64,000 nucleotides of DNA from Erysipelothrix tonsillarum DSM 14972 (lineage in GTDB: Bacteria; Bacillota_I; Bacilli_A; Erysipelotrichales; Erysipelotrichaceae): NCBI RefSeq assembly GCF_000373785.1, contig NZ_KB892379.1, positions 149,916 through 213,915 of the forward strand, in the 5' to 3' direction. Both the position numbers and the translations under genes were made by a program. Of this stretch, positions 28,231-56,063 are shown piece by piece (position 1 is the stretch's first letter; each line of letters opens with the position of its first letter). Below the pieces are notes generated by a model, which saw nothing but the letters and a program-made list of their open reading frames with translations, was not told where the DNA came from and did not search any database.

Positions 28231-29016
28231 TTAAAAAACAATTGGTGCAACAACGTTTTGTAATACAGCAACAATACTCCATCCTGCAACACGACTGGTG
28301 CGACTGTAGATTTTTAAATCAGTTTTAATTTCATCACCTTCAAGCATGATGCGGTGTTCATCACCCACATAGCCAGGAATTGCGTTAATCTTGAGTGTAG
28401 TGTCTTCTGGACCTGCACTTGCTAGAGCAATTGCTACTGATACATTAACATGTGTTGGTAAAGCAGCGATTGCTTCTTTGGTTGTTCCTGAGAAAACTTC
28501 TACAGGTTCTTGAATATCAATTAATCCTTCACGATTTAGTGAAGTATGTACAAGTGCGCGTGGAGACTTCATACCAGTCATTTTTACGTTTACAGGACTC
28601 ATAAGAGTAGCGGTACGTAAGATATCAAATCCTCCGACGGCTCCACTTGCAATATGAACTTTTCTTTCTGTTTCACGAGCGACACTTTGAATGTGGTTAT
28701 AGAAGGAAGCATCTGCAAAAGCACCAATAGAGAGTACAACAAGGTTTGAGCCTGCTCTAAGAACTGTTTCTGTATAATCTATAACTGACTTAACGGAAGC
28801 TGCTTCAGCAGTGTAATCAGGCTCTAAAGCCATTAATTCTTCAATCGTTGAACACGCTTTGCAACCATAGTGATTTGCAAAAGCCTCCGTACGCATTGCA
28901 TTACGTCCGAGGACACCAACGAGTTCATATTCTGGGAGGTAGCCATCAACCCAAGCTTGAGCGACGATATCATTTAGAAATCCAGGCCCAATTAAAGCTA
29001 ATTTTAGTTTTTTCAT
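28231..29016 (-). CDS. Aspartate dehydrogenase-like (DUF108) oxidoreductase
   Basis: 261 residues. An N-terminal Rossmann fold (LALIGPGFLND) and a C-terminal domain with HIASGAVGGFDILR and LPTHVNVSVAIALASAGPE correspond to the L-aspartate dehydrogenase family. It uses NAD(P)H to interconvert aspartate and oxaloacetate or iminoaspartate, and some members feed NAD synthesis. No nadA or nadC gene is adjacent, so a catabolic or a different amino-acid substrate is equally possible. Monocistronic on the minus strand. The 285 bases upstream (29017-29301) hold no gene that I can see. Confidence 0.8.
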   Translation of the reverse strand: MKKLKLALIGPGFLNDIVAQAWVDGYLPEYELVGVLGRNAMRTEAFANHYGCKACSTIEELMALEPDYTAEAASVKSVIDYTETVLRAGSNLVVLSIGAFADASFYNHIQSVARETERKVHIASGAVGGFDILRTATLMSPVNVKMTGMKSPRALVHTSLNREGLIDIQEPVEVFSGTTKEAIAALPTHVNVSVAIALASAGPEDTTLKINAIPGYVGDEHRIMLEGDEIKTDLKIYSRTSRVAGWSIVAVLQNVVAPIVF

Positions 29017-29301: not shown

Positions 29302-29841
29302 TTAGTGGTCTTTATGGAATGTTATAAATTCATAAGTTACGGGTTCGCTAGTGAGTAGTCCTCCATATATATTGAAGTTAAGTTCAAGAGGAATATAGTG
29401 TAAATGCTTCGTGGTGTTATTAAGAAGCGGAAGGGATGAAAAATGCGGAAAATCTTGCTCGATGCGCAAATCATAATATTTGATATAACATTCTTTAGCG
29501 CACCATGTCTTATAAAAACCATCAATCCCAGCCTTTACAACAAATGTTAATTCATCAGGATGATAGAATCGCTGCGCAACACGAAGATAAGCGTCATTAT
29601 TAATCCTCTTTTGAAAGTCGATGCTTAATGGAATGAGACTGAATGCATGAGCAATAAAATCTTCAGTGATTGTCTTACTGTAGTAAAAATCATTCTTTAA
29701 TATTAAGGGCTTGCCATTTTCTGTACGATAAAGGCACCATGATGTACTAAGATGGTTGCGATAAATATAATCTTCAATACAGTATTTTAAATTGTCATCC
29801 GAAGCAATTGGTACGAGATAAATTATGACATGATTTTTCAT
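29302..29841 (-). CDS. Sfp-type 4'-phosphopantetheinyl transferase
   Basis: Would transfer phosphopantetheine from CoA to the Ser of a carrier protein, making it active. 179 residues, short for Sfp enzymes (about 220). Visible motifs are ENGKPLI, SIDFQKR at 73-79 (metal-binding Asp75; the usual second acidic residue of the IDIE motif is Gln77 here), and the signature W113-x-x-K116-E117 with Lys121. It is divergent from an operon that encodes an acyl carrier protein (32661-32891), with a 133-base shared regulatory region. That protein is the obvious client. The weak metal motif leaves some doubt about activity. Confidence 0.8.
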   Translation of the reverse strand: MKNHVIIYLVPIASDDNLKYCIEDYIYRNHLSTSWCLYRTENGKPLILKNDFYYSKTITEDFIAHAFSLIPLSIDFQKRINNDAYLRVAQRFYHPDELTFVVKAGIDGFYKTWCAKECYIKYYDLRIEQDFPHFSSLPLLNNTTKHLHYIPLELNFNIYGGLLTSEPVTYEFITFHKDH

Positions 29842-29894
29842 ACGACCTCCTTATTAATCTAAGCATATCACGAGTGGTGTGTCTTTTTTTTTCG

Positions 29895-29949
29895 CTTAAG
29901 AATCTATAAGCCGTTCTTAAGATTGTGTTAAGAATTGAAGTGCTATAAT
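29895..29949 (+). promoter_or_regulatory. Promoter with phased CTTAAG direct repeats before the dlt-like operon
   Basis: CTTAAG occurs at 29895-29900 and 29916-29921 and GTTAAG at 29927-29932, spaced 21 and 11 bases (two turns and one turn of the helix). A perfect -10 TATAAT lies at 29944-29949 but no good -35 is present. The repeats cover the -35 position, the arrangement used by OmpR-type activators. Similar repeats precede the response-regulator gene at 35464. Confidence 0.6.
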
Positions 29950-29974
29950 TGGCACGGACTAAAGGAGTAATGAT

Positions 29975-31489
29975 ATGAATCATATATTGAAGTGTCTTGA
30001 AATGAGTGCAACATCATACCCAACAAAAAGAGCGGTGATTGAACCAAAGGGATGGATTACTTACCAAGATCTGTATCAACAATCCCGAAGGGCAGGTTCA
30101 TTTTTCATTCAATATTTTAAAATGAATGAACCTATTGTTATTTTTAAAGAGAAGAGTATTCAAACATTGTGTTTGATGTTTGGTTCAGCATATGCAGGAT
30201 GTCCCTATGTCATTGTAGATCCTTCGCAGCCAGATGAGCGCATTCGTCTAATACTTAAAACGTTAGAAAGTCATTCTATTATTGTTGACGAAGACCAATG
30301 CAAACGTGTTCAACAGATAGACTCGAGGATTAACTGTATTCATACAGACGCAGTATTTCTAACCACTATCGATGAATCAAGGATAGCACAACGATTACAA
30401 CATCATGTATCGACAAATCCACTCTATATCTTATTTACTTCTGGATCAACCGGAACACCGAAAGGTGTTGTAGTCTCGCACCAATCGGTTATCCGCTTTA
30501 TTAAAGATTTTACTGATAAATTTAATTTTTCTACAAAAGATGTAATTGCAAATCAAGCACCTTTTGATTTCGATGTATCCGTAAAGGATATCTATAGTGC
30601 GATGATGACGGGGGCAACGTTATTGTTGATACCGAAAAAGTATTTTTCAAATCCTGTTACCCTACTTGATTACATTTGTGACTCTGGTGCAACCGTGTTG
30701 ACATGGGCTGTGTCCGCATTATGTCTTGTGAGTCAATTAAAAGGGTTATCGTATCGTGTGCCAACAACCTTGAGGCAAATAATGTTTAGTGGAGAACGGA
30801 TGCCAATTAAACATTTAAAACAATGGCGCAAAGCATGTCCTCAAGCAGAATTTGTGAATTTATACGGTCCTACTGAAATCACTTGTAATTGTACTTACTA
30901 TATTCTAGAACGAGACTGTGATTATGAAAAAGAGTTACCAATCGGTCAGCCCTTCTATGATGATTATGTCTTTTTGTTAGATGAAAATGACCAAGTAGTG
31001 ATGGCACCCGGTTTGATGGGAGAAATCTGTGTTGGTGGTCCTAGTTTGGCTCTCGGTTACTATAATAATCAAGAACAAACTGCAAAAGCATTTATTCAAA
31101 ATCCGGGAAATCCATATTATCGCGACATAATTTACCGCACAGGGGATTTAGGATACTACAACGAAAGTGGAGCATTATGTATTAAAGGAAGAAAAGATTT
31201 TCAGATTAAACATATGGGTCATCGCATTGAACTTGAAGAAATTGAACAAAAAATTGAGGAGCATCCATCTGTATCACGTGCTTGTTGTGTGTATCATGAA
31301 AAGAAATATAAAATATATGGAATTTATCATGGTGATGTTGATGTAAAGGCATTAATTTCATATTTGGAAACGAAACTACCCCAGTATATGATTCCCAATA
31401 CCTTCATTCAAGTACACCAAATTCCTCTCACAAAAAACGGAAAAATTGATCGACAATTATTAAAAATGGAGGTAGGGATTCAATCATGA
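29975..31489 (+). CDS. DltA-like amino acid adenylating enzyme
   Basis: 504 residues, a free-standing adenylation domain. Core motifs: phosphate loop FTSGSTGTPKG (154-164), FDFDVSVKDIY (197-207) with Asp200 for the amino group as in DltA, NLYGPTEI (295-302), YRTGDLGY (387-394), GRKDFQIKHMGHRIELEEIE, and the C-terminal catalytic Lys in NGKIDR. It would activate an amino acid with ATP and load it on the carrier protein encoded two genes downstream. DltA has Cys in an FCGE motif that selects D-alanine. Here it is FSGE with Ser272, so a different substrate is likely. Overlaps the decarboxylase gene by 4 bases. Confidence 0.88.
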   Translation: MNHILKCLEMSATSYPTKRAVIEPKGWITYQDLYQQSRRAGSFFIQYFKMNEPIVIFKEKSIQTLCLMFGSAYAGCPYVIVDPSQPDERIRLILKTLESHSIIVDEDQCKRVQQIDSRINCIHTDAVFLTTIDESRIAQRLQHHVSTNPLYILFTSGSTGTPKGVVVSHQSVIRFIKDFTDKFNFSTKDVIANQAPFDFDVSVKDIYSAMMTGATLLLIPKKYFSNPVTLLDYICDSGATVLTWAVSALCLVSQLKGLSYRVPTTLRQIMFSGERMPIKHLKQWRKACPQAEFVNLYGPTEITCNCTYYILERDCDYEKELPIGQPFYDDYVFLLDENDQVVMAPGLMGEICVGGPSLALGYYNNQEQTAKAFIQNPGNPYYRDIIYRTGDLGYYNESGALCIKGRKDFQIKHMGHRIELEEIEQKIEEHPSVSRACCVYHEKKYKIYGIYHGDVDVKALISYLETKLPQYMIPNTFIQVHQIPLTKNGKIDRQLLKMEVGIQS

Positions 31490-32661
31490 ACTTAAACGAA
31501 ATATATCACGCAAACCCTCAGATTCAAACACCATGTTATCTTTTTGATTTGGACCAACTCGAACAACATATTAAGGCAGTAAAAAATGCATTGCCTGGAC
31601 CTATACAACTGTGTTATGCCATGAAAGCAAATCCTTTTCTAGTAGGGATCATGTCAGACTTTGTGGATTCCTTTGAGGTCTGCTCACCAGGGGAATATCG
31701 TATTTGTCAAAGACAAAAAATACCAAATCGAAAAATTATTCTTTCGGGAGTCTATAAGGACCCTAACGATTTAGAGTCTATCATCAAAATGGATGAACAG
31801 CCCATTTATACAATCGAATCGTTGAGGCATTTAGAGATATTAGATGAATTATCGAGGCGATATCGAAAAACAATTAAGGTTCTCATTCGCTTGACTAGTG
31901 GCAATCAGTTCGGTGTTGATCTTAAAACGCTTGAACAAATCTTAAAAAACAAAAATGATTATCCATTTTTACACTGGCATGGTATTCAGTTATATTCAGG
32001 AACACAAAAACATAAAATCTGTAAGATTAAAAAGGAACTTGAAGAACTTAAAGCATACATAGAAATACTTCGAAAACGTTATGAGGTTAGTTTGCCTTGT
32101 CTTGAATTTGGTCCGGGATTAGGAGTTCGCTATTTCGAAGCGGATAAAACAGAAGTATCAATAGAAACCTTCGGTACAGCATTGGATGACCTCAATTTTC
32201 AAGGGGAAATCGTTTTGGAAATGGGACGAATCTTGGTCGCTTCCTGTGGTGTTTATCTCACCAAGGTTGTAGATATCAAACATAATGACACAAAAAACTA
32301 TGCAATTCTTGATGGTGGAATTCACCATATGAATTATTACGGACAGTTTTTAGGGATGAAACAACCAATTATTAATCGCATCGCGGTCAATCCGAAACAT
32401 AAAGCGACTCAATCATGGCATCTATGTGGGGCATTGTGCACAGTTTCAGATGTTTTGGTAAAAGATTTTGAAACAACCTTAGAGCAAGAAGATGTCTTGG
32501 CTTTTATGAATGTTGGAGCCTACAGTATTACAGAAGGTATCAGTCTCTTCCTAAGTAGAGATCTACCGCAAGTATGTTTTTATCGTAATGAAACTGGACT
32601 GGAAATTGTTAGAGAATCCGTCCAAATTGATTTTTTAAACTCAATAAAGGAGCAAAAATAA
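31486..32661 (+). CDS. Fold-type III PLP-dependent decarboxylase
   Basis: 391 residues of the ornithine/diaminopimelate decarboxylase family (alanine-racemase fold). Lys47 in CYAMKAN would bind PLP. Other blocks are FGPGLGVRY, EMGR (245-248, the EPGR motif), and the second-subunit active site CGALCTVSDVL (314-324) with Cys318 and Asp322, plus GAYSITEG with Tyr346. The sequence is diverged from biosynthetic LysA or ODC. Its position between an adenylation enzyme and an acyl carrier protein recalls BtrK, which decarboxylates an aminoacyl group already on a carrier protein. It may therefore act on a carrier-bound amino acid. A free-amino-acid decarboxylase is the alternative. Confidence 0.85.
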   Translation: MNLNEIYHANPQIQTPCYLFDLDQLEQHIKAVKNALPGPIQLCYAMKANPFLVGIMSDFVDSFEVCSPGEYRICQRQKIPNRKIILSGVYKDPNDLESIIKMDEQPIYTIESLRHLEILDELSRRYRKTIKVLIRLTSGNQFGVDLKTLEQILKNKNDYPFLHWHGIQLYSGTQKHKICKIKKELEELKAYIEILRKRYEVSLPCLEFGPGLGVRYFEADKTEVSIETFGTALDDLNFQGEIVLEMGRILVASCGVYLTKVVDIKHNDTKNYAILDGGIHHMNYYGQFLGMKQPIINRIAVNPKHKATQSWHLCGALCTVSDVLVKDFETTLEQEDVLAFMNVGAYSITEGISLFLSRDLPQVCFYRNETGLEIVRESVQIDFLNSIKEQK

Positions 32662-32891
32662 TGAACAAATTATTAGAAATATTAGAAGATATTAAACCTA
32701 ATGTAAATTACGAAGTAGAAGAGCAATTGGTGGATAAACGGATCTTGGATTCGTTCTCGATTCTTACATTGGTTGCGGAAATTGAAGATCATTTTGATGT
32801 AGAAATTCCATTCGATGAAATTAAACCAAGTAATTTTAACACGTTAAAAAATATGTGGGAAATGGTAAATCGACTCAGCGGAGAGAACTGA
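32661..32891 (+). CDS. Acyl carrier protein, DltC-like
   Basis: 76 residues, acidic and helical, with the phosphopantetheine attachment Ser31 in LDSFSILTL, very like the LDSF motif of DltC. It would carry the activated amino acid, possibly while it is decarboxylated, and present it to the membrane acyltransferase. Its ATG overlaps the decarboxylase stop, and its stop shares bases with the start of the MBOAT gene. It is the only carrier protein in the window, and the phosphopantetheinyl transferase is divergent from this operon. Confidence 0.9.
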   Translation: MNKLLEILEDIKPNVNYEVEEQLVDKRILDSFSILTLVAEIEDHFDVEIPFDEIKPSNFNTLKNMWEMVNRLSGEN

Positions 32892-34408
32892 TGGCTTATC
32901 ACAATTATATCTATCTCTTTCTTTTCCTCCCTATTATGATGGTTGGTTATCAATTGATTAAAAAGAAATATCGCTATTTATTCATGCTTGCGGGTAGTAT
33001 TGTTTTTTATCTATTGTTGAGTTTTGAATTAATAGTTTATCTTCTTTTGATTGCAGCTTCAACCTATGGATTTGGGCTTTTGTTGCCCAAATGTAAACCT
33101 AAATATCGTACCCTTTTTCTTTGGCTAGGTATACTTGTTCCGTTGGGGATACTCACGGTATTTAAGTACTACAACTTTGTTGGGGAAAATTTAAATACAC
33201 TTCTTAAAGGCTTTCAAATTACAATACCTTACCAAAAATTTGTCCAACCCATAGGAATTTCCTTTTTTTCACTCCAAGCCATTAGTTACTTGGCAGATGT
33301 GAAGTTTGGGAAAATAAAAGCAGAGCGCAACCCTTTCAAGATACTGTTATACTTATCGTTCTTTCCAACGATTATTGAAGGACCAATTGCACGATATGAT
33401 CATGTTGTGCCACAACTTTCAGAAGGACACGTGATAACCTACCATTCATTAACCTATGGTCTTCAACGGATGTTGTGGGGTTTAATTAAGAAAATAGTTA
33501 TTGCTGACCGGCTCGATCCGTTTGTAGGCTCTGTATTTAAAAATATTGATACCAATGGTGGGTTGATTTTGTTTATCGCAGTCTTAGCGTATACGCTGCA
33601 ACTGTATGCTGAATTTTCGGGGACAATGGATCTGGTTCTTGGGAGTGCCGAAATATTTGGTGTTCAACTCCCAGAGAACTTTAATCAACCCTTCTTATCT
33701 CGTTCTGCTTCGGAGTTTTGGCGTCGCTGGCACATGACTCTGGGGTCCTTTTTCAAAGATTATATCTTTTATCCAATCTCGTTATCAAAAATGAATCGAA
33801 ACATCACGAAATGGTTAAAACCACGGATTGGAAAACAAGTCAGTCGTCTCATTCCAACTTTAGGGGCATTGCTTGCTGTATGGATATGTAATGGGTTATG
33901 GCACGGGGCACAATGGCAATACCTTGCATATGGTGTGTATTATTTTCTCATCATTTCGTTTGGAATGTTACTCGAGCCCATGATTTCGAAATTCTTCATT
34001 AAAACTAAAATTAATCGTAATAGTAAAGCTATGAACGGATTAAAATGGTTGCGCACCATGCTGATTGTAAATGTTGGGATGATGTTATTTCGGTCACATG
34101 GGGTATCAAAAGCAGTAACTATGTGCTTGAAAATAGTTAAAGATTTTAAGATTGTGCAATTAACGGATGGATCTTTATTGAATAAAGGCATGGATGTTCA
34201 TGATTTTGTAATTGTACTGATTGGCCTAATAATGATGGTAGGTGTCGGGCTTATCAAAGAAAAAGGCATCAATATTCGGTCTGAAATTTCAAGTTGGAAA
34301 TGGTTCTATCGTACAGTATTTTATTACGGGGCTATGTTATTCCTCGTGATTTTTGGTGCCTATGGATATGGTTATGCAATTGTAGAACTCATTTATGCAA
34401 ATTTTTAG
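32891..34408 (+). CDS. MBOAT-family membrane acyltransferase (DltB/AlgI-like)
   Basis: 505 residues with about eleven membrane helices. Conserved blocks are FFPTIIEGPIARYDH, the FWRRWHMTLGSFFKDYIFYPI segment, and NGLWHGAQWQY containing the catalytic His. MBOAT proteins pass acyl groups from cytoplasmic donors through the membrane to surface polymers (DltB: D-alanine to teichoic acid; AlgI: acetate to alginate). With an aminoacyl carrier protein beside it, DltB-like use of an amino-acyl group is likely. ATG 32891 shares a base with the carrier-protein stop. An upstream extension in the ORF is rejected. Confidence 0.92.
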   Translation: MAYHNYIYLFLFLPIMMVGYQLIKKKYRYLFMLAGSIVFYLLLSFELIVYLLLIAASTYGFGLLLPKCKPKYRTLFLWLGILVPLGILTVFKYYNFVGENLNTLLKGFQITIPYQKFVQPIGISFFSLQAISYLADVKFGKIKAERNPFKILLYLSFFPTIIEGPIARYDHVVPQLSEGHVITYHSLTYGLQRMLWGLIKKIVIADRLDPFVGSVFKNIDTNGGLILFIAVLAYTLQLYAEFSGTMDLVLGSAEIFGVQLPENFNQPFLSRSASEFWRRWHMTLGSFFKDYIFYPISLSKMNRNITKWLKPRIGKQVSRLIPTLGALLAVWICNGLWHGAQWQYLAYGVYYFLIISFGMLLEPMISKFFIKTKINRNSKAMNGLKWLRTMLIVNVGMMLFRSHGVSKAVTMCLKIVKDFKIVQLTDGSLLNKGMDVHDFVIVLIGLIMMVGVGLIKEKGINIRSEISSWKWFYRTVFYYGAMLFLVIFGAYGYGYAIVELIYANF

Positions 34409-34416
34409 GAGGACTT

Positions 34417-35364
34417 ATGAAAATTATTAGATCAATCATGTTCACCCTTGGTTTTATTGGTATCTTACTAATGATTACCCCTTTTTTTGCTCCCTATGAA
34501 ATTGATGCTTTTGCTAAAGGAAATAGTACGGCTTTTAATGGTGTTTTTGCAGAAGAGGATCATAGTTTAGATCTGTTGTTTACTGGGGATAGCGAATCTT
34601 ATACCAGTTTCATGCCGATGAGATTTTGGGAAAAATTAGGGGTGCAATCCTATAATATTGGAGTTGCCTCCCAAAACTTAGCTGATGGTCATAAAACCAT
34701 CAGCCATATTCTACAAAAACAAAAACCAAAACTCATCGTTTTAGAAACAAACCAAGTCTTTACGAACATAGGAGGCCTCGCGAATCTTGTTGACAAATCA
34801 ATGACAAATACACTCGCGAATATATTTCCTATTCTAAATTATCATGATAATTGGAAACAAATTCTTTCATTTCAAAAAGCTCGGGGTGTGGAAATCAAAC
34901 GCAATCCCTTAAAGGGTTGGCGTTATAATCAAAAAGAAAGTGCATATGAAGGAGGCCCTTATATGCATGAAACATTATCCAGTCGTGATATTCCCACATT
35001 GAATCAACATTATCTTGATCAAATTGTAACGCTATGCAAAGAAAAGAATATCAAGCTTTTACTTGTCAGTGTACCATCTCCACGAAATTGGAATTATGAA
35101 AAACATAATGCAGTTCTATCTTATGCTCAAGCGAACAATATTCCGTTTTTAGATTTAAACTTGGAAGCTGAAGCCATAGGCATTAATTGGAATGAAGATA
35201 CTTATGATAAAGGTGATCATCTAAATGTAAAAGGTGCGGAGAAAGTAACGCAGCGGCTGATTCAATATATATCTCAGAATTATTCAATTCAAAGCACATA
35301 TTCGAATGAACAAAAATTACAATGGGATAAAGACTACGATGCCTTCGTTCAACAGGTGAAATAA
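34417..35364 (+). CDS. Extracytoplasmic SGNH-hydrolase-like protein (DltD/AlgX role)
   Basis: 315 residues. One N-terminal membrane helix (about 5-25) is followed by an outside-facing SGNH domain. Catalytic Ser59 is in FTGDSE, an Asn-containing ETNQVF block follows, and the C-terminal pair is in KGDHLNVKGAEK. Proteins of this kind partner MBOAT enzymes and complete transfer to the polymer (AlgX/AlgJ, PatB, and functionally DltD). GGAGG precedes ATG 34417. Last gene of the operon. No terminator separates it from the response-regulator gene 99 bases on, but a separate promoter region is present. Confidence 0.82.
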   Translation: MKIIRSIMFTLGFIGILLMITPFFAPYEIDAFAKGNSTAFNGVFAEEDHSLDLLFTGDSESYTSFMPMRFWEKLGVQSYNIGVASQNLADGHKTISHILQKQKPKLIVLETNQVFTNIGGLANLVDKSMTNTLANIFPILNYHDNWKQILSFQKARGVEIKRNPLKGWRYNQKESAYEGGPYMHETLSSRDIPTLNQHYLDQIVTLCKEKNIKLLLVSVPSPRNWNYEKHNAVLSYAQANNIPFLDLNLEAEAIGINWNEDTYDKGDHLNVKGAEKVTQRLIQYISQNYSIQSTYSNEQKLQWDKDYDAFVQQVK

Positions 35365-35463: not shown

Positions 35464-36159
35464 ATGAAAAAGATACTTGTGGTTGATGATGACAAAGAGA
35501 TTCGTGATTTGATGAAACGTTATTTAGAAATTGACGGATATGAAGTTATAGTTGCCTCAGATGGCCATCATGCCTTGCAGTTACTTAATGAGCAGATTAA
35601 ATTGGTGATTCTAGATGTAATGATGCCGGATTTAACAGGATTCGAAGTCAGTGAAACGATACGAAATAAGTATAACGTTCCCATACTTTTCGTTTCGGCG
35701 AAGGCAACCGAACAAGATAAATTTGTTGGCTTTTCTGTAGGCGGAGATGATTATCTAAGCAAGCCGTTTTCTTTTTCTGAGCTAAGCCTCCGGGTTAAAT
35801 CGTTATTACGTCGTTATATTCAATATGATCGTGCAACAGAGCAACCGGTTGATTCGAAAAAAATTAATACGATAGACTCAATTAAGATTGATCTTGAAAA
35901 AGGGATTACATTAAAGGATGGATTGCTTCTAGACCTTACCGAAAGAGAATTTCGCATCTTATCGCTGCTTGCAACGAACCGAGGTAAAATCTTTTCAATT
36001 CAGAGCATTTACGAAAATGTGTGGCAAGATGAGTATTTATATTCATCAGCAAATACGGTAATGGTTCACATTCGAAATCTCCGAAAAAAAATTGAAACAT
36101 GTCCTGAAAATCCGAAAATTATTAAAAATATATGGGGAAGAGGATATAAAATTGATTAA
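35464..36159 (+). CDS. OmpR-family response regulator
   Basis: 231 residues. The receiver domain has the acidic pair VVDDD, phospho-acceptor Asp in LVILDVMMPDL, Ser/Thr in FVSAKA and Lys in LSKPFSF. The C-terminal winged helix has LTEREFRILSLL and VMVHIRNLRKKIE. Forms an operon with the sensor kinase, overlapping by 8 bases. Directly follows the dlt-like genes. TCSs of this class control dlt and other cell-envelope modification genes in Firmicutes. Confidence 0.95.
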   Translation: MKKILVVDDDKEIRDLMKRYLEIDGYEVIVASDGHHALQLLNEQIKLVILDVMMPDLTGFEVSETIRNKYNVPILFVSAKATEQDKFVGFSVGGDDYLSKPFSFSELSLRVKSLLRRYIQYDRATEQPVDSKKINTIDSIKIDLEKGITLKDGLLLDLTEREFRILSLLATNRGKIFSIQSIYENVWQDEYLYSSANTVMVHIRNLRKKIETCPENPKIIKNIWGRGYKID

Positions 36160-37465
36160 ATCTACGAAGCGTTCCCTAACATTAGGACTCAAAATATTTC
36201 TTATCACTTTAGGTTCAATTTTTGCTTCGCTATTGGTATTTGTTGTAACCAAATCTGTTTCCATTGAATCCATAGCAAACTATGTTAAAGGTGAAGAGCG
36301 TATCCATAATCGGATGTTGCGAGATAAACAAGATTTACAACACTATATTATTGACAACAATATCACGGCGATGAATATTGAAGATTTAGAGTTATGGCTC
36401 GAAAATCATAAATACATGATTATTTACGTTGTTGATGTTGATAATAATAACATACTCTATACTAATGATTATTTATTTGTAAGTAAAGAATTGGAAATTG
36501 TAGGAAATACATCACTTGAATCAACGATGCTTTATATGGGTGGAAAATATTACTACATTGATATGTTGTATTCCGTCCGTGCAGAGGTTGAAAATTATGC
36601 AACATATCTTGGACTAACTCTTGCTTCGGGAACTTTTCTAGTGTTATTCTACTATGGAATTCGTAATATCACCAAGCGTGTCCAGCAACTTACAAATGAA
36701 ATCGAGATTATTGGTGCTGGGACACCCAATAGTTATATTAGCGATAAAGGTAATGACGAATTAGGCCGACTCAGTGCAGAAATAAATGCACTGATTACCG
36801 AACTATCTCAGAAAAATAAAGAATTAGTGATCTCTGAAAACGCACTAAAGGAACTTGTTACGAGTCTCGCGCATGATTTAAGAACGCCGCTCACGTCATT
36901 AATTGGTTATATTACACTAATCAAGTTAGAATCAAATTCAGAAGATATTGAGTTACTAGCAAGTCGGTGTGAACAAAAAGCATTACAAATGAAAACAATT
37001 TCTGATGAATTGTTTTCACTCTTCTCTACATTATCTCTGAATGAAGCAAGCGAATTACCGTTAGAACGTTTGCACGTACAAGATTTTATGGAAGGAGTTA
37101 TCGAACGACTGGCAGCAGATCTTGAACTGAATGGTTTTGATGTTGTAATTCACCGTGAACTCACTGAAGTGGATCGTTATATGAATTTAAACCTTTATTA
37201 CATGGATCGTCTTTTTGAAAATATTATTTCTAATGTTCTTAAATACGCAGCACCTCACTCTGAAATTTGTTTTAACTTTATAATTCGTGATGCTTGGTGT
37301 CATCTTGAAATTAAAAATCTAAAACGAAACGATCAAATTACTGATGAAGCATCTGGATTTGGTTTGCTTTCGTGTCGTAAAATTGTAGATTCGCACAAAG
37401 GGCACTTTACTACAGAGCATGTAGAAAGCATCTTTGTGACGAAGATAGAACTTCCCATAAACTAA
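36152..37465 (+). CDS. Sensor histidine kinase
   Basis: 437 residues. Two membrane helices (about 12-34 and 150-172) flank an extracytoplasmic sensor domain of about 110 residues rich in Asn, Tyr and Met (VVDVDNNNILYTND). Then come a HAMP-like linker, the phospho-acceptor SLAHDLRTPLTSL and the ATPase domain (NIISNVLKYA, then GFGLLSCRKIVDSHKG). The start is TTG 36152 after GAAGAGG, overlapping the regulator stop. The ORF extension to 36092 is rejected. Cognate partner of the OmpR-type regulator; the signal is unknown. Confidence 0.92.
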   Translation: MIKSTKRSLTLGLKIFLITLGSIFASLLVFVVTKSVSIESIANYVKGEERIHNRMLRDKQDLQHYIIDNNITAMNIEDLELWLENHKYMIIYVVDVDNNNILYTNDYLFVSKELEIVGNTSLESTMLYMGGKYYYIDMLYSVRAEVENYATYLGLTLASGTFLVLFYYGIRNITKRVQQLTNEIEIIGAGTPNSYISDKGNDELGRLSAEINALITELSQKNKELVISENALKELVTSLAHDLRTPLTSLIGYITLIKLESNSEDIELLASRCEQKALQMKTISDELFSLFSTLSLNEASELPLERLHVQDFMEGVIERLAADLELNGFDVVIHRELTEVDRYMNLNLYYMDRLFENIISNVLKYAAPHSEICFNFIIRDAWCHLEIKNLKRNDQITDEASGFGLLSCRKIVDSHKGHFTTEHVESIFVTKIELPIN

Positions 37466-38357: not shown

Positions 38358-39305
38358 TTATAATTTAATGATTTCACTTTCGTTTAGTTCAAAATCATGA
38401 ATGCAAAAAGCATGTGTTGTAAAGTCATCGTAAGTATTGTAATAGTATGACTGGGTCGATGTGACCATAAAAGCAGTGTATTGGGTGTAGTCTATGGTTT
38501 TACGTTGTGTAATAACACTTCCTTTTGCGATATCGACACCGTTTAAGATATGACTCGCTGCAATTACGAGTTCTTTCTCAGAAGATGCTTTTTGTGTACT
38601 AAGTTTGGTATAAAGCGTTTTAATAAAACGTGATGGTGGGGTAAGGTCGCCAGGAATCCCAAAAGTACCGCTTCCTTGACCAAATGGTTTAAATATTTGA
38701 CCATACAATACACGCGGTTCTACTTGTACCGGATCTAACCCAATATAATTACGAACATTGGTTAGATGCCAGGTATAGTCAGGACTGTTTGTAAGAACAC
38801 CAATTTTATTTTCGTGGATTTCAATTCCTCGAATCGTGGGTTCCACAATAATTGAGTCGCCTGCTGCATCTTGGAAAACCCAGTGAAGCGGTGGGACAAT
38901 ACCCAAGAATTCAATAACATGATGTGTTACAGGATGTTCTTTAAACATCGTTCTTACATCATCAATGTTTTTACAATGGGCAAGAGCCCACATTACGACT
39001 TCGTGTGGGGCTAAGGAGAGATTGTTATATTCTTTGTGTTCGTACTCAGCATAGCCTTCAAAATAAAGGGCAGCTGCGGCGAGTCCGTGTTCATTAACAC
39101 CATCGGCCAAAGCATACGTACCAATATGTTTCGCAAGTCCAAGGTATGCAAAGTGATTTTTTGGCTGGGTGTCGTGAAATGTAAAATGAAGGGGATAATT
39201 ACGTGGAATGAGGATCATTTCAGGAGTGAGTTCAAACGAAAAGTCCATTGTTCGAGCCATTAAAAATTGATTCTCAGTACTTTTTAAAGTTATATTCGTA
39301 CACAT
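38358..39305 (-). CDS. Choloylglycine hydrolase-family amidase (Ntn hydrolase)
   Basis: 315 residues. Removal of the first Met exposes Cys2 as the N-terminal nucleophile (sequence starts MCTNITL). Arg18 and Asp21 in ARTMDFS fit the family's catalytic set. Relatives are bile salt hydrolases, penicillin V acylases and N-acyl homoserine lactone or fatty amide hydrolases. The substrate pocket cannot be called from sequence. A cytoplasmic location is likely, since no signal peptide is present. Start ATG follows AGGTTAAC. A 7-bp hairpin lies in its leader. Confidence 0.88.
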   Translation of the reverse strand: MCTNITLKSTENQFLMARTMDFSFELTPEMILIPRNYPLHFTFHDTQPKNHFAYLGLAKHIGTYALADGVNEHGLAAAALYFEGYAEYEHKEYNNLSLAPHEVVMWALAHCKNIDDVRTMFKEHPVTHHVIEFLGIVPPLHWVFQDAAGDSIIVEPTIRGIEIHENKIGVLTNSPDYTWHLTNVRNYIGLDPVQVEPRVLYGQIFKPFGQGSGTFGIPGDLTPPSRFIKTLYTKLSTQKASSEKELVIAASHILNGVDIAKGSVITQRKTIDYTQYTAFMVTSTQSYYYNTYDDFTTHAFCIHDFELNESEIIKL

Positions 39306-42453: not shown

Positions 42454-42512
42454 TTAAAGCGCTTACATCGTGTGGGGTGTTATAATCACATTAGGTTATC
42501 GATTATCGATAA
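42454..42512 (+). promoter_or_regulatory. Promoter with cre-like site and 17-base palindrome before the GH101 gene
   Basis: TTAAAGCGCTTACA (42454-42467) differs from the cre consensus at one position. It covers the -35 region of a promoter whose -10 is TATAAT at 42481-42486. Just downstream, TTATCGAT-T-ATCGATAA (42496-42512) is a perfect palindrome between the promoter and the ribosome binding site. Two-layer control by CcpA and a specific repressor is inferred. Confidence 0.62.
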
Positions 42513-42526
42513 TAAAGGGAGGCGCA

Positions 42527-45500
42527 ATGAAAAAATTATTGAACATATTTCTTGTATTTATGCTAATGATTACTTCATTAACACGAAATCCAATGCAAGT
42601 TTTCGCAGATGAAGGCGAAGCATGGATTTCAGTATCAGAGAGAAAGGGGATCGTGAAGGAAGTCATTCATAAAGATGTACGGTATGACCAATTGGAATCG
42701 ACGCAGTCTAATGATAATGGACTGAATGCGGCCGTATTTCAACCATCCGGGCAGTGGATTTCTAAAGGGAAAGAAGCAAACGTTGTGTTTGATTTTATAC
42801 CGCTAACATCAAATTCTCAAACACGTTTCAACATCATGCTTTTCTATACTGATTTAGAAAACTTTGTTTCTATCGGTTACGACCGAGAGGGATGGTTTTG
42901 GGAATATAAAGTCGACGGGAAGGGCTCATGGATGACATCAAAGCGTATTGCAGGTCCGCAAGTCAATAGCGTAAACACGCTCGAGATTAGTTTAAAAGAT
43001 GACAAGTTGCTTGCTTGGAATACCACAGATGATGGAGAGCGCATACTGCTTTTCGACACCATGTTGGATGCACACGTGTTAACACAACTTTCGGAAAAGT
43101 CTGAGCAAATTGCCGTTAAATTGGGAACTTTTGGGTCGGAGTTGACTAAAATTCGAATGAAATCAAACAATCAAGATAATATTGAACCCAGTATACCGGA
43201 ATTTGAACGTCCCGTTTTGGATGTTTATGATCCCTATGAACTGATTTATGATTTTTCGGAAATTGATGCAGAAGAAGTCAAAACACTTTTTGATGTGCCA
43301 ACGGGAAAAGTAGATGTTCAAAAAGAGGATGACGCTGTAAAGTTGGATTTTAAGTCTGCAGGGAAAAATCTTTTAACGTTACGAAAAACACCATTACTGG
43401 ATAATTATGAGATGGAAGCCGAAATAAGTTTGGACCAACCAGGAAAACGCTTTGGTCTTGCAGCTCGTGTTTTAGATGATGCGACATATGGATATGGTGT
43501 GTTGGGGGATGAAGATGGTGCATATTTTGCTGAGCATTTCGGAACATCCAATTATTGGAGTAGCACCCATAAAGGTGACTTATTGAAGACAGAAGAGAAA
43601 CATATTATTAAAATGCGTGTTGAAGAAACCACTTTGTCCTTCTTTATAGATGGAAAACCCGTATTTGAAGAGACGATGAGTGCATTTCATAAAGATGCAG
43701 GTGCTCTTGGCTTCTTTAAAGATCGTGGCATGGGGAGTGTTCATCTTTACCAATTAAAGGTTAAACGAATTGTACCGATACGTCCGGAAGAACCGCAAAC
43801 GGATGGAACCATTGAGGATGTACTAAATACGCCCACAATGCGTGTTCGTATTGATCAAAGTTTTCCGCGTGTCCTCGATTATACAATGACATCCGGTGAA
43901 ACGATGCAAGGCCAAGTTGAACACATCAATACACTAAAAATTAATGGTTATGAACTTGTACCCGAAGTTAGCTATCAAAAAAATTCGGAAAGCAAAGCGT
44001 TCTATACGATGAAGGTTGAAGATCAAGCGCATAACATTCATGCGACGCTTGAATCCCAGCTGGTGGTAGACGATAATACCCTAAGTTTTAGAATTACCGA
44101 AATTATAAATCATAACGAAGATCAATCAAGTAATGATGCAATAATACGCACAATTGAGATTCCAAACCATAGCCTCGTTTCGGTACAGTCAGATCAAAAC
44201 ACTGCGACTTTAATGGGTTCGGTGATTTCTACGAATACAACCAAATCAGGGGATGTAAAGGTTCCGGTAGATGCGGAACTTCGTAATTATAATCATCATT
44301 TTATGTATGCATTTGTTTCAAACGATACACTTGCGGCAGGAATTCATAGTAATTCACAATATTCAAAAGGTGGTGGACCTGGAGATTTTGTCCGTGTTCA
44401 TGCTCAAGCAAAGGAATATAAATCGTTTAATTCCTTGGGTCTTTCCAGTTCTCCATGGATTTATCATCGTGATGTGATGTACGATGAAGACACCTTAGAA
44501 CTACCGGAAGTGAGCGTAGTGATTACACCCGATTTAAATGGTGATCAAGAGGTAAACTGGCAAGATGGAGCTATTGCCTTTAGAAAGATTATGTACAGCC
44601 CAGTGGGAGCAGAACATGTTAAAGATCTTGTTGCTTATCGTATTGCTATGAATTTTGGTTCCCATGCGCAAAATCCATTCTTAATGACACTTGATGGCAT
44701 TAAAAAAGTGAACCTTCATACGGATGGTTTGGGGCAATCAATTCTACTCAAGGGATATGGTAGTGAAGGTCATGATTCTGGTCACTTAAACTATGCGGAC
44801 ATTGGGGAACGTATGGGAGGGATTCAAGAGTTTCGATATTTATTGGATGAGTCAGTCGATTATGGTGCTCGTATTGGGATTCATGTGAATGCTAGTGAAA
44901 CGTATCCCGAATCGAAATACTTTACCGAAGACCGTTTGCGTAAAAATGAAGATGGTACTTACAATTATGGTTGGAACTGGATTGATCAAGGAATCAATAT
45001 CGATGCTGCCTATGACTTAGCTCATGGTCGTAGAGGACGTTTCGAAGATTTAAAAAATGCAATTGGTGGCGATGAGAATAATCTTGACTGGGTTTACGTA
45101 GACGTATGGGGCAACGGTCAGTCGGGTGATAATAATGCATGGGCGAGTCATCAATTGGCGAAAGAAATCAATGATCAAGGTTGGCGTCTTGGTGGCGAAT
45201 GGGGTTATGCATTTGAACCGGATTCAACCTTCCAGCATTGGGCAGCTGACTTAACCTACGGTGGATATACCTTAAAGGGAATTAATTCAAATGTCGCACG
45301 TTTCATTTTCAATCATCAACGAGATGCTTGGATTGCGGATTATCCGAAATACTCCGGTGCTGCAGATTATCCACTCCTTGGTGGTTATAATATGAAAGAC
45401 TTTGAAGGATGGCAAGGCCGTAATGATTATAATGGCTATATGGTTAATCTTTTTGAAAATAATGTACCGACGAAGTTCATTCAACATTACGAAGTAACAC

Positions 45501-47890
45501 GATGGGTTGAAGGTACACCTGTAGATATGATTAATCCCGACGGTGCTCATTTTAAATGGACACCAGAAATGATGGTCGAACTCACTGATCCGGCGCAAAA
45601 TACGTTGGTAATTGAACGAAAGTCAAATGATTATACAAACAACCGCGATTTATACCGTTCAAAAACCATGAAATTAAATGACCGTATAATTCTCGATGGG
45701 GATGCATATCTATTACCATGGAATTGGAATGCGGTGGGTGACACCCTCGAGTCAGGGAAATTGTACCATTTCAATAAAACTGGTGGACAAACGACTTGGG
45801 AACTTCCAAATGATTGGAAGGTAGCATCTGTGATGTACTATGAGCTTACAGAAACTGGTAAAAAAGAAATTGCGGAAGTTCCAGTCAAAAATGGACGTGT
45901 AACCTTGGAAGCGAAAGCGGATACGGCATATACAGTCTATCAAGGAAAACAAGCCCCTCATCATGTGACTTATGGTGAAGGTGCTCATATTAATGATCCA
46001 GGATTTAATCACCAAAATCTAGATGCATGGAATGTAACAGGAAAGGGAGCGGAGGTTGTGAAGTCACAGGCTTCCAATGATATGCTTCGCATTCAAGACA
46101 ATAAAGATGAAACAATAGTGTCTCAAACGTTGTTGGATCTTGAACCGGGAAAAAACTATATTGCGTATGTTGGGGTGGATAACCGCTCGGATGCTGCAGC
46201 ACGCTTACGTGTAAGCACAACCGAACAAATACAGTCAAACTACACTCATCGATCTATTGCGAAAAATTACGTTAAAGCGTATGCGCATAACACTAATGCG
46301 GCGACTGTGGATAACACGAGTTATTTCCAAAACATGGCTGTATATTTTACGGCCCCGGATGATAAGAGTGTGGTAACATTGGAACTCATTCGTGATGCCG
46401 GCGATGGTGCAACCTATTTTGATGATGTACGCATTACACGAAATGAAGGCAATCCATTTATCGAAGAGGGGGTCTTCTTCCAAGATTTTGAGGAAAGTGC
46501 CCAAGGTATTTATCCATTTGTAGTTGGAAATATTGAAGGCGTTGAGGACAACCGGACACACCTATCAGAAAAAAATGCGCCATATACACAACGCGGCTGG
46601 AATAACAAAGAAATTCATGATGTCATCGAAGGAAATTGGTCGTTAAAAACAAATGGACTGACACAACGCCGACGCCTCGTATACCAAACAATTCCTCAAA
46701 ACCTTCGTTTTAATGCGAATACACGCTATCGTATTCAATTTGATTATGAAGCGGGGTCAGAAGGTACGTATGCTCTTGTAGTGGGGGATGGTGAATTTAC
46801 GGGCAATGAAACGCAAATTGCATTGCCGGCTACACTGAATGCTGATGGACCACAAACATATGAGTTTGAGCTTGAAGGATCACCTAGTGGACAATCATGG
46901 TTTGGAATATATTCCACTTCAAAAGCCCCAAACCTTCAAGATGCAAACGATAAAGATGCAAACTTTAGATCATACAAGGATATTGTGTTGGATAATATCC
47001 ATGTCGTGATGATTCAAGAACATGAGACGATTCAGGTTGTAGATGAAAATACAGGAATTATCGTAGAAGGTTCATCATCGCTTTTAAGTAAAGATCATCA
47101 GCTTAAAACTCAACGTGATGATGTACTGAAACAAAAATTGGAAAATCTTAATCCTTGGATGGACTTAGATGTTTACCATATTGCGATTGATGCTTTTGAA
47201 GTATCTAAAGAGAATACTGTAACCATTAAAATTCCTTCGAAAAATCAAAAACAATTGTTCAGAAGTGTTCAAAATGATACGGTTCAATCTGTATATCGCG
47301 TTCTTTCCGATGATACCCTTTTAGAGGAGCCCTTTACAGTAAATGAGGGGGAGGTCGTAGTGACGACCCATGAGTTGGGAACGTTCGCAATTAATTATGG
47401 TGTTCCAATAGAAGCGATCGATAAGCAACCATTAATTGAAATTATCGAGCAAGTAGCATCCTTTAATTCATTGGATTATACGGATAAATCATGGAACATG
47501 CTCGTATCCATGGTAGAAGAGGGTACGAATCTTTTGAAAAATGTTGGAGTGACACAAGCCGAACTAGATACTGCGGTTTCGCAAATTCAAAAAGCGATTG
47601 AAGCACTCATACTACAAGTAACAGAGCAACCTAACGAAATCGATAAGGACGTTACGAAACCAACACCTGATGATAACGTTGAAAATCTGTCGCCTGAACA
47701 AGAAGCGGTTGTAGAGAATATTGTGAATAAGACTGATACTGAGAAAGAGAATAAAGCAGATGATAAGTCAGAAACACAATTACCAGCATCCGGAGTTTCT
47801 TCAAGTTATGCAGTATATCTTGGTCTCGTAATGATTGCACTGGGATTGGTGGTCATTGCTACAAAAAAAGGAAAACGTAATACGCAGTAA
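42527..47890 (+). CDS. Sortase-anchored GH101 endo-alpha-N-acetylgalactosaminidase
   Basis: Would remove core 1 disaccharide (Gal-beta-1,3-GalNAc) from mucin-type O-glycoproteins on the host surface. 1787 residues. Signal peptide 1-32. Two N-terminal carbohydrate-binding or lectin-like regions (laminin-G-like) precede the catalytic barrel. Nucleophile Asp859 is in YVDVWGN and acid/base Glu891 is in GGEWGYA, 32 residues apart, the same distance as in the pneumococcal enzyme (D764/E796). The STFQHWAADL segment is intact. Two further carbohydrate-binding modules and a FIVAR-like helical domain follow. The sorting signal LPASG is at 1752-1756, with a hydrophobic helix and KKGKRN tail. ATG 42527 follows GGGAGG. 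Confidence 0.93.
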   Translation: MKKLLNIFLVFMLMITSLTRNPMQVFADEGEAWISVSERKGIVKEVIHKDVRYDQLESTQSNDNGLNAAVFQPSGQWISKGKEANVVFDFIPLTSNSQTRFNIMLFYTDLENFVSIGYDREGWFWEYKVDGKGSWMTSKRIAGPQVNSVNTLEISLKDDKLLAWNTTDDGERILLFDTMLDAHVLTQLSEKSEQIAVKLGTFGSELTKIRMKSNNQDNIEPSIPEFERPVLDVYDPYELIYDFSEIDAEEVKTLFDVPTGKVDVQKEDDAVKLDFKSAGKNLLTLRKTPLLDNYEMEAEISLDQPGKRFGLAARVLDDATYGYGVLGDEDGAYFAEHFGTSNYWSSTHKGDLLKTEEKHIIKMRVEETTLSFFIDGKPVFEETMSAFHKDAGALGFFKDRGMGSVHLYQLKVKRIVPIRPEEPQTDGTIEDVLNTPTMRVRIDQSFPRVLDYTMTSGETMQGQVEHINTLKINGYELVPEVSYQKNSESKAFYTMKVEDQAHNIHATLESQLVVDDNTLSFRITEIINHNEDQSSNDAIIRTIEIPNHSLVSVQSDQNTATLMGSVISTNTTKSGDVKVPVDAELRNYNHHFMYAFVSNDTLAAGIHSNSQYSKGGGPGDFVRVHAQAKEYKSFNSLGLSSSPWIYHRDVMYDEDTLELPEVSVVITPDLNGDQEVNWQDGAIAFRKIMYSPVGAEHVKDLVAYRIAMNFGSHAQNPFLMTLDGIKKVNLHTDGLGQSILLKGYGSEGHDSGHLNYADIGERMGGIQEFRYLLDESVDYGARIGIHVNASETYPESKYFTEDRLRKNEDGTYNYGWNWIDQGINIDAAYDLAHGRRGRFEDLKNAIGGDENNLDWVYVDVWGNGQSGDNNAWASHQLAKEINDQGWRLGGEWGYAFEPDSTFQHWAADLTYGGYTLKGINSNVARFIFNHQRDAWIADYPKYSGAADYPLLGGYNMKDFEGWQGRNDYNGYMVNLFENNVPTKFIQHYEVTRWVEGTPVDMINPDGAHFKWTPEMMVELTDPAQNTLVIERKSNDYTNNRDLYRSKTMKLNDRIILDGDAYLLPWNWNAVGDTLESGKLYHFNKTGGQTTWELPNDWKVASVMYYELTETGKKEIAEVPVKNGRVTLEAKADTAYTVYQGKQAPHHVTYGEGAHINDPGFNHQNLDAWNVTGKGAEVVKSQASNDMLRIQDNKDETIVSQTLLDLEPGKNYIAYVGVDNRSDAAARLRVSTTEQIQSNYTHRSIAKNYVKAYAHNTNAATVDNTSYFQNMAVYFTAPDDKSVVTLELIRDAGDGATYFDDVRITRNEGNPFIEEGVFFQDFEESAQGIYPFVVGNIEGVEDNRTHLSEKNAPYTQRGWNNKEIHDVIEGNWSLKTNGLTQRRRLVYQTIPQNLRFNANTRYRIQFDYEAGSEGTYALVVGDGEFTGNETQIALPATLNADGPQTYEFELEGSPSGQSWFGIYSTSKAPNLQDANDKDANFRSYKDIVLDNIHVVMIQEHETIQVVDENTGIIVEGSSSLLSKDHQLKTQRDDVLKQKLENLNPWMDLDVYHIAIDAFEVSKENTVTIKIPSKNQKQLFRSVQNDTVQSVYRVLSDDTLLEEPFTVNEGEVVVTTHELGTFAINYGVPIEAIDKQPLIEIIEQVASFNSLDYTDKSWNMLVSMVEEGTNLLKNVGVTQAELDTAVSQIQKAIEALILQVTEQPNEIDKDVTKPTPDDNVENLSPEQEAVVENIVNKTDTEKENKADDKSETQLPASGVSSSYAVYLGLVMIALGLVVIATKKGKRNTQ

Positions 47891-53801: not shown

Positions 53802-54929
53802 TTATTTTGCTAAACACGTTTTCGTGTATGCAGAGATGATTTCAAGTCCTTTTTTAAGAGCTTCTGTTTCATATGCATAACCAACTCGAATATATCCTTC
53901 CATATCCATAGCACTACCTGGTAACACTAAAACGCCTGTATCGTTTAGAAGGTTTACACAGAAGTCATGGGAAGGAAGATCGAAGTTCATTTTAATAAAA
54001 GCTGTGGTGCCTCCCTTAGGTGGAATGATATCATAGTTATCATCATGTGCTACCCAGTCCGTCAAAATCTTTACATTTTCACGTACGATTTTTAAATTTC
54101 GTTCAAAAATCAGAGATTTATTTTGAAGGGCAAGGGTTGCAAAGTAATCATCAATGACACCACAACTAATCGTGTCATAGTCCCGGTGGATTAACACTTC
54201 TTGAATTACTGCATCCGGTGCAGCGATCCAGCCCAGGCGTATTCCTGCTAAACTAAACGTTTTGGACATACTGGAGGTACTGATGCCTTTATCATATAGA
54301 TCAATAATTGAAGTGGTAAGATTATTTCCTTCATGTGTTAAACCGCGATAAACCTCATCACAAAGGATATAACTTCCGTAGGGTTTCACAATATCCACGA
54401 TGGCTTGAAGGTATGTTTCATCCATCACGGCACCAGTAGGATTATTGGGATTGTTGATGCACACAAGTTTAATGTTCGGGTTCATCATCGTTTTCAATAC
54501 ATCAAGATTGGGGAGGAATTTGTCCTCATAGGTTAAAGGCAATAAGTGCACGGTTGCGCCAATTGACTCAGGAATTGAATAAAGTTGTTGGTAAGTTGGG
54601 ATGACACTAATAATCTCATCTCCGGGTTCCACAATCGCATTAAGCACCATATTATTAGCACCAATTGCTCCATGAGTAGGAACAATATTATGAATGGAAA
54701 GATTATTATAGAGCGATGCGATTCCTTCGAGAAGAGCTTGACTGCCTTCTATATCACCATAACTCAGCCGTTTTTCGAGTAAGGTTTGAATCATGGCTTC
54801 TTTATCTCCTAAGAAATCAAGGAATTCTTCAACATAGAAGGACGAAACACACGTTTCTGCTAGATTGTAAACGGCTTGTGTTTCATACTTGTTCATATAA
54901 ATTTCCACTCCAAAGTCTTTTATTTTCAT
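53802..54929 (-). CDS. Class I/II pyridoxal-phosphate aminotransferase
   Basis: 375 residues of fold type I. Visible blocks are YGDIEGSQALLEGIA, GAIGANNMVLNA, INNPNNPTGAVM, ILCDEVYRGL, and the PLP-Lys motif SSMSKTFSLAGIRLGW. The C-terminal Arg is in GYIRVGYAY. Probably a cytoplasmic amino acid aminotransferase, with its substrate unknown. Its start overlaps the stop of an ornithine cyclodeaminase-family gene by one base, so the two are coupled. This pairing suggests an amino acid degradation or interconversion route. Confidence 0.9.
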   Translation of the reverse strand: MKIKDFGVEIYMNKYETQAVYNLAETCVSSFYVEEFLDFLGDKEAMIQTLLEKRLSYGDIEGSQALLEGIASLYNNLSIHNIVPTHGAIGANNMVLNAIVEPGDEIISVIPTYQQLYSIPESIGATVHLLPLTYEDKFLPNLDVLKTMMNPNIKLVCINNPNNPTGAVMDETYLQAIVDIVKPYGSYILCDEVYRGLTHEGNNLTTSIIDLYDKGISTSSMSKTFSLAGIRLGWIAAPDAVIQEVLIHRDYDTISCGVIDDYFATLALQNKSLIFERNLKIVRENVKILTDWVAHDDNYDIIPPKGGTTAFIKMNFDLPSHDFCVNLLNDTGVLVLPGSAMDMEGYIRVGYAYETEALKKGLEIISAYTKTCLAK

Positions 54930-55984: not shown

Positions 55985-56039
55985 AATACACCTCTTTCTA
56001 GTTGCATTATAACAAAATCTCTTTTGAATAAATTTCAAG

Positions 56040-56052
56040 ATATCCTGGATAT
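56040..56052. promoter_or_regulatory. Palindrome upstream of the cyclodeaminase gene
   Basis: ATATCC-T-GGATAT, a perfect 13-base palindrome with a further GGATA copy nearby. It lies 55 bases before the start codon and just past the PucR-type regulator gene. Possible operator for that regulator. Confidence 0.42.
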
Positions 56053-56063
56053 TTTTGGATAAA

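Follow-up and report, generated by a model that had tools for sequence, protein, structure and literature searches.

D-alanylation of teichoic acids is one of the principal means by which Gram-positive bacteria reduce the charge of their surface and withstand cationic peptides. Among the membrane-bound O-acyltransferases (MBOATs), PatA auto-acylates a tyrosine within an FxYxxF motif at its C-terminus, and a separate protein, DltX, does likewise for DltB (PMC12148441). A different group of enzymes decarboxylates amino acids on carrier proteins. BtrK, from a branch of substrate-diverse relatives of diaminopimelate decarboxylase (DAPDC), turns glutamyl-BtrI into 4-aminobutyryl-BtrI (PMC7857480). 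In the VinN/VinL/VinO module, the 3-methylaspartyl acyl carrier protein is decarboxylated only once loaded, VinN rejects the already decarboxylated acid, and FlvN provides a precedent for aspartate (PMC11284099). The same chemistry has been proposed for aspartate in BolO/BolC/BolN, where feeding with beta-alanine failed to rescue a bolN deletion (PMC7756342). The subject of this work is a five-gene cassette that resembles both kinds of system, found in a stretch of 64,000 nucleotides (hereafter the window) from Erysipelothrix tonsillarum DSM 14972 (RefSeq assembly GCF_000373785.1, contig NZ_KB892379.1, positions 149,916 to 213,915 of the forward strand).

The cassette encodes an adenylation enzyme (A), a decarboxylase dependent on pyridoxal 5'-phosphate (PLP) (D), a carrier protein (C), an MBOAT (M) and a membrane-anchored SGNH protein (S). 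Open reading frames (ORFs), family scans and junction sequences identify an operon in the order A-D-C-M-S on the plus strand, with a divergent gene for a 4'-phosphopantetheinyl transferase (PPTase) and, on the 3' side, a VanR/VanS-like two-component system (Table 1), which an earlier, preliminary description of the locus did not include. This operon probably encodes a carrier-fed surface acylation pathway with decarboxylation on the carrier, in which aspartate or glutamate would become a beta-alanyl or 4-aminobutyryl ester on a surface glycopolymer. That preliminary description had proposed a Dlt-like amination system with on-carrier decarboxylation, encoded by these five genes and the PPTase gene, all of which are present where it had placed them. 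The Dlt-like logic, the BtrK-type decarboxylase and the transfer pair of that proposal stand; its substrate, acceptor polymer and added positive charge are predictions.

The cassette is not peculiar to this organism. A search with D of 96 genomes of the host family gave ten strong matches (E ≤1e-80), namely the window's own and nine others, with LysA-like matches clearly apart at E values of 7e-19 or weaker. A and C lie beside D in all ten, and M and S are present wherever the fetched sequence reached, except in one genome (L039) in which no S was recognised. When bacterial genomes were scanned with a D alignment, at least 564 relatives were found, and the best 80 of these, together with the window, make up the 81 loci referred to below. 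All five genes are found in 73 of them, mostly from Clostridia; the order is A-D-C-M-S in 63 and M-S-A-D-C in nine, and the other nine, which include loci truncated at the end of a contig, differ. Nearly all loci thus have one of two orders. The clustering is not a matter of chance, since the same genes sit with D in nine other family genomes and are complete in such a large part of the 81 loci. Pairwise distances are correlated between A and D (0.78) and between M and S (0.90), and none of 500 permutations for each of the pairs A-D, D-M, A-S and A-C exceeded 0.15. The genes are linked and jointly inherited as one unit, and the unit is widespread in Clostridia, including many gut Clostridia. 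No relative of D was found among viral contigs. Two-component systems are the commonest neighbours, and 24 of the 81 loci include a histidine kinase. One cassette lies on a contig labelled Streptococcus suis (L067), unlike the other hosts, and may reflect a mislabelled or contaminated assembly or a transfer. Near three others (L041, L045 and L056), inspection by eye picked out secreted proteins whose repeats look choline-binding-like or cell-wall-binding-like.

BtrK is the best match to D in the PDB by sequence. With a structure of D predicted by AlphaFold2 (mean predicted local distance difference test (pLDDT) score 90.5), BtrK is also the best fold match, both in Foldseek (3.6e-32, with the leading DAPDC at 6.0e-29) and by VIA-align 2 (Z of 41.2, with the leading DAPDC at 39.5), which upholds the earlier assignment of a BtrK-type decarboxylase. 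D has the fold and residues of the BtrK/VinO-type class, as it is a fold-type III protein of the DAPDC/BtrK branch with a PLP lysine and a catalytic cysteine; these two residues, Lys47 and Cys318, are invariant in the 81 loci. Residue 319 is threonine in every locus, so that a Cys-Thr pair is shared with BtrK, whereas the aligned DAPDCs have Cys-Glu. In DAPDCs, the glutamate that follows the catalytic cysteine touches the amino group at the far end of the diaminopimelate or lysine ligand. D misses the LysA equivalog model (158.4 bits, cut-off 297.9) and reaches only 19.7 bits against alanine racemase. Its action on a carrier-bound substrate is predicted from the genomic linkage to a carrier protein. 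In the alignment, a stretch of about 14 residues that precedes an x-x-FG motif in BtrK and the DAPDCs is absent from D near residues 138-142.

A exceeds the cut-off of the amino acid adenylation family TIGR01733 and misses the equivalog level of the NCBIfam DltA model (321/308 bits; 308.5 versus a cut-off of 559.85). Ten positions of its substrate pocket were placed by core motifs in 78 loci from Clostridia and Erysipelotrichaceae. The resulting code, DVK[I/T/V][L/M]SLCNK, varies so little that a single substrate is suggested, with Asp200 and Lys204 present in 78 of 78 proteins and Asn305 in 79 of 79. Lys204 stands at the position of a methionine in DltA, and a basic residue in the pocket suggests that the substrate carries a free carboxylate. 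Because a PLP decarboxylase of D's fold takes off an alpha-carboxylate, the thioester would be formed on a non-alpha carboxyl, with the same regiochemistry as in VinN/VinO (PMC11284099) and as proposed for BolO/BolN (PMC7756342). Judged by the pocket residues, the substrate is most likely L-aspartate or L-glutamate, activated through the side-chain carboxyl, with a slight lean to aspartate because the precedents VinN, FlvN and BolO use aspartate-type acids. The 4-aminobutyrate-like group from glutamate named in the preliminary description is kept as one of at least two options, another of which, beta-alanine from aspartate, is no worse a fit and may be a better one.

The remaining proteins would carry the acyl group and transfer it. 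The attachment serine of C is present in 77 of 77 proteins, and C misses the equivalog level of the DltC model (39.6 bits, cut-off 68). DltB is the best match to M by both sequence and fold, even though the DltB cut-off is also missed (152.5 of 375 bits). The model of M (pLDDT 91.3) has extra helices after a DltB-like core, ending in LIYANF, and this terminus is seen across loci as xxYxx[F/Y], with Tyr502 in all 75 proteins that reach it. His281 is conserved in 76 of 77 proteins and His338 in 76 of 76. No separate DltX gene fits in the junctions from A to S (ORFs elsewhere were listed from 60 amino acids up). In S, the SGNH serine is found in 75 of 75 proteins and the histidine in 74 of 74. 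The conserved histidines, the C-terminal shuttle tyrosine and an adjacent SGNH protein with its serine and histidine are those of MBOAT-SGNH surface acylation, in keeping with the outward acyl-transfer pair recognised earlier. As judged from these sequences, what is structurally new in the cassette shows most plainly in the pairing of a carrier-fed supply with an MBOAT that bears the shuttle motif itself.

The genes are tightly packed, with overlaps of 4 nucleotides between A and D, 1 between D and C and 1 between C and M, as the short overlaps noted previously would have it, and a gap of 8 nucleotides between M and S. The listed ORF of M opens at an upstream GTG, and the ATG overlaps the stop codon of the carrier gene by one base; that of S opens at an upstream TTG, with the ATG at 34417. 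Pfam cut-offs are exceeded by the PPTase (PF01648) and in the AMP-binding, Orn/DAP/Arg decarboxylase, PP-binding and MBOAT families. The SGNH match of S (PF13472) is below threshold (26.6 versus 32.9 bits), with the serine, aspartate and histidine conserved among homologues.

Table 1. Genes of the cassette and its immediate surroundings, in window coordinates
Feature	Coordinates	Strand	Residues, matches and remarks
PPTase, Sfp/AusB-like 4'-phosphopantetheinyl transferase	29302..29841	-	PF01648 32.2 bits, cut-off 25
A, stand-alone DltA-like adenylation enzyme	29975..31489	+	Lys204 (PheA position 239), Asn305 (331), code DVKTMSLCNK
D, BtrK-like fold-type III (alanine-racemase fold) PLP decarboxylase	31486..32661	+	PLP Lys47, Cys318, Thr319 replacing the DAPDC Glu
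C, DltC-like carrier protein	32661..32891	+	Ser31 attachment site; genome's only PF00550 match
M, MBOAT acyltransferase	32891..34408	+	DltB-like core His281, His338; C-terminal extension ending LIYANF, putative acyl-shuttle Tyr502
S, membrane-anchored SGNH protein, predicted DltD/PatB-like role	34417..35364	+	Ser60, Asp265, His269 (numbering one residue ahead of ATG)
OmpR/VanR-type response regulator, directly downstream	35464..36159	+	Family scans; recurrent cassette neighbour
VanS-like sensor histidine kinase	36092..37465	+	Family scans; recurrent neighbour; true start probably downstream of listed TTG

A gene for a NadX-like aspartate dehydrogenase (28231-29016, minus strand), below its equivalog cut-off, adjoins the PPTase gene. 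It was considered as a pointer to an aspartate substrate and dropped, as it does not recur beside the cassette in the relatives examined. Elsewhere, the window encodes a large endo-alpha-N-acetylgalactosaminidase of family GH101 (42470-47890, 1806 amino acids), a choloylglycine hydrolase family protein that is possibly a bile salt hydrolase (38358-39305, minus strand), and a row of genes (53802-57185, minus strand) for a PRK07324 aminotransferase, an ornithine-cyclodeaminase/alanine-dehydrogenase family protein and a PucR-type regulator. The PRK07324 match is over its cut-off, and the protein also resembles GntC and VioD.

The wider genome (1.93 Mb, 97% complete) was examined by family searches. 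The PPTase of the operon is its sole PF01648 match; the carrier, the sole PF00550 match, is barely over the cut-off, so that a divergent second carrier could escape. The search found no full fatty-acid condensing enzyme in this genome, only a ketoacyl-synthase match of 43 residues, and a role for C as a fatty-acid carrier protein was rejected on these grounds. The operon is thus the only set of PPTase and carrier detected in the genome, as expected if it is the organism's main carrier-protein pathway, which had been suggested before. A genome of the same genus (G083) is without the cassette. It encodes a full condensing enzyme and a PPTase of its own, along with a cluster for fatty acid synthesis (L121). 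Neither a diaminopimelate epimerase nor any other match to D was found in the window's genome, which leaves no route to lysine there in which D could act. No DltA reaches the curated cut-off in the ten cassette-bearing Erysipelotrichaceae or in 21 cassette-bearing genomes from the D scan, mostly Clostridia. As one genome is common to both sets (L079 of the scan is G040 of the family set), the lack of a canonical dltA, which the preliminary description had expected from a reported lack of dltABCD in Erysipelothrix rhusiopathiae, extends to 30 distinct cassette-bearing genomes.

Three genes of the window's genome, two of the CDP-glycerol glycerophosphotransferase family and one for an MdoB-like phosphoglycerol transferase, encode possible makers of the acceptor polymer. 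The cassette abuts teichoic-type polymer genes in two relatives, with CDP-glycerol glycerophosphotransferases upstream of it in one (L032) and a polymerase, a cytidylyltransferase and an epimerase beside it in the other (L035). Two further cassettes (L081 and L110) lie inside polysaccharide clusters.

In the proposed mechanism, the divergent PPTase would convert C to its holo form, and A would adenylate L-aspartate or L-glutamate at the side-chain carboxyl and load it onto C as a thioester. In the A pocket, the free alpha-carboxylate would be bound by the invariant lysine and the asparagine, and the alpha-amino group by the aspartate. D, with its PLP joined to that amino group as an aldimine, would then take off the alpha-carboxylate before the chain leaves C, so that aspartate yields beta-alanyl-S-C or glutamate yields 4-aminobutyryl-S-C. 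M would move this omega-aminoacyl group across the membrane onto the tyrosine of its own C-terminal shuttle motif, from which it would pass to the serine of S. S would in turn esterify an extracytoplasmic glycopolymer, for which a glycerophosphate (teichoic-type) polymer is the likeliest candidate. The ester so formed would be achiral and positively charged and would stand in for D-alanylation where dltABCD is missing, and transcription is probably governed by the adjacent two-component system. Sequence and fold comparisons establish which genes are present, their linkage and conservation, the catalytic residues, the fold matches and the lack of an over-cut-off DltA; from these, the substrate, the product, the sequence of steps, the acceptor, the effect on charge and the regulation are inferred.

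Several observations weigh against this reading or parts of it. The lead of BtrK over the DAPDCs is modest, and identity to D is low for both, at about 20-27%. The pocket code of A is unmatched to any characterised aspartate- or glutamate-activating enzyme, VinN grips the alpha-carboxylate by other residues, Ser299 and Arg331 (PMC7756342), and the substrate assignment, which draws largely on one charged residue, is a guess. S is poorly conserved (mean identity 28.5%), and the window's copy is under the Pfam cut-off. All conservation counts are conditional on loci picked by their similarity to D. The acceptor is read from neighbours in a few loci, and other cassettes lie in polysaccharide clusters or by unrelated genes. 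In one locus (L104, 6465-9582), a polysaccharide cluster contains A-D-C but neither M nor S, and the adjoining gene encodes a PseC/LegC-like sugar aminotransferase; another transferase may draw on the loaded carrier there, and A-D-C may be usable without M and S. Finally, no DltA reaches the cut-off in any of 245 genomes of a phylum sample either, cassette-free ones included. The absence of dltA is therefore general in that sample and alone no evidence of replacement; in the cassette-bearing Clostridia, seen without a matched control, it is a suggestive hint of one.

The evidence on A, C and D also bears on whether the cassette is a divergent Dlt system, in which A, C, M and S would decorate teichoic acid with D-alanine or another plain amino acid, with D as an accessory protein or a racemase-like supplier of the D-amino acid. 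A, C and M do match the DltA, DltC and DltB models, and D has the alanine-racemase fold. However, every one of these matches is far under its curated cut-off, the invariant lysine of A replaces the methionine of DltA, and D, which adjoins A and C throughout the loci, retains Cys318 and matches BtrK and DAPDC far better than alanine racemase; this explanation is unlikely. A plain Dlt system was rejected on the missed cut-offs, on Lys204 and on the lack of an over-cut-off DltA in the cassette-bearing Erysipelotrichaceae. No more probable is a pathway with the order reversed, in which D would decarboxylate free aspartate or glutamate and A would then activate beta-alanine or 4-aminobutyrate to give the same surface product. 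The gene set fits either order, but the invariant lysine, with the aspartate at position 235, would suit a substrate with a carboxylate and an amine rather than a plain amine, and loading comes first in the closest characterised modules (VinN, PMC11284099; bolN feeding, PMC7756342).

The placement of D in the DAPDC branch, with 158 bits to LysA and fold matches to DAPDCs, could instead mean that D is a diaminopimelate decarboxylase, with a free or carrier-bound substrate, and that the operon makes lysine or lysyl groups. This is very improbable, as the LysA score is far under the cut-off, the glutamate of the aligned DAPDCs is threonine throughout, D shares its cluster with genes for a carrier and an acyltransferase, and no diaminopimelate epimerase was found in the window's genome; the missed LysA cut-off, Thr319 and the epimerase result led to the rejection of a role in lysine biosynthesis. 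The chemistry could also be as proposed and the acceptor a capsular or other polysaccharide, or peptidoglycan, instead of a teichoic-type polymer. The loci in polysaccharide clusters, including A-D-C alone in L104, are consistent with this, as is the action of MBOATs with fused motifs on peptidoglycan, alginate and cellulose (PMC12148441). The CDP-glycerol polymerases beside the cassette in some relatives and an MBOAT core nearest to DltB argue against it, and such an acceptor is considered unlikely.

Carrier-fed acylation of a teichoic-type polymer, with decarboxylation on the carrier, is thus the preferred explanation. Chances are about even that the cassette represents a widespread, apparently undescribed class that combines a Dlt-like carrier feed, a PatA-like fused tyrosine and on-carrier decarboxylation to an achiral beta-alanyl or 4-aminobutyryl ester, and that replaces D-alanylation in many gut Clostridia and Erysipelotrichia without a recognisable dltA. 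No published system that combines these parts was found in the open-licence literature, which is weak evidence of novelty, and none of the papers searched there deals with Erysipelothrix and dltABCD together. If the proposal is right, cassette-bearing gut Clostridia and Erysipelotrichia use another amine in place of D-alanine, made by decarboxylation on a carrier, and MBOAT-SGNH transfer can be carrier-fed without a separate DltX, joining two mechanisms so far described apart.

Of the known systems, DltABCDX shares with the cassette a clustered stand-alone adenylation enzyme, a DltC-like carrier, an MBOAT with a DltB core and an SGNH partner. The cassette differs in its added decarboxylase, in the lysine instead of methionine in the A pocket, in missing all Dlt cut-offs and in the fusion of the shuttle motif to the MBOAT, where Dlt has it on the separate DltX. 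PatA/PatB and the AlgI-type systems likewise have a shuttle tyrosine on extra C-terminal MBOAT helices and a separate SGNH protein, but are fed by acyl-CoA without a carrier (PMC12148441), whereas the cassette has a carrier and an adenylation enzyme. The exosortase A-associated proteins of TIGR03098 and TIGR03099 pair an adenylating ligase with the same decarboxylase branch, a likeness that extends to the A-D-C genes of L104; however, the cassette's proteins are far under both cut-offs (191.8 of 592.35 and 175.7 of 478.45 bits, respectively), and M and S are adjacent in the cassette. With BtrJ-BtrI-BtrK, VinN-VinL-VinO, FlvN and BolO-BolC-BolN, the cassette shares, as predicted, an acidic amino acid on a stand-alone carrier and its PLP-dependent decarboxylation there. 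Among solved structures, BtrK comes closest to D. BtrJ is, to our knowledge, not an A-domain enzyme, and VinN differs from A in its pocket residues. The butirosin (Btr), vicenistatin (Vin), FlvN and Bol systems feed soluble natural products, whereas the carrier of the cassette is linked to a membrane transfer pair.

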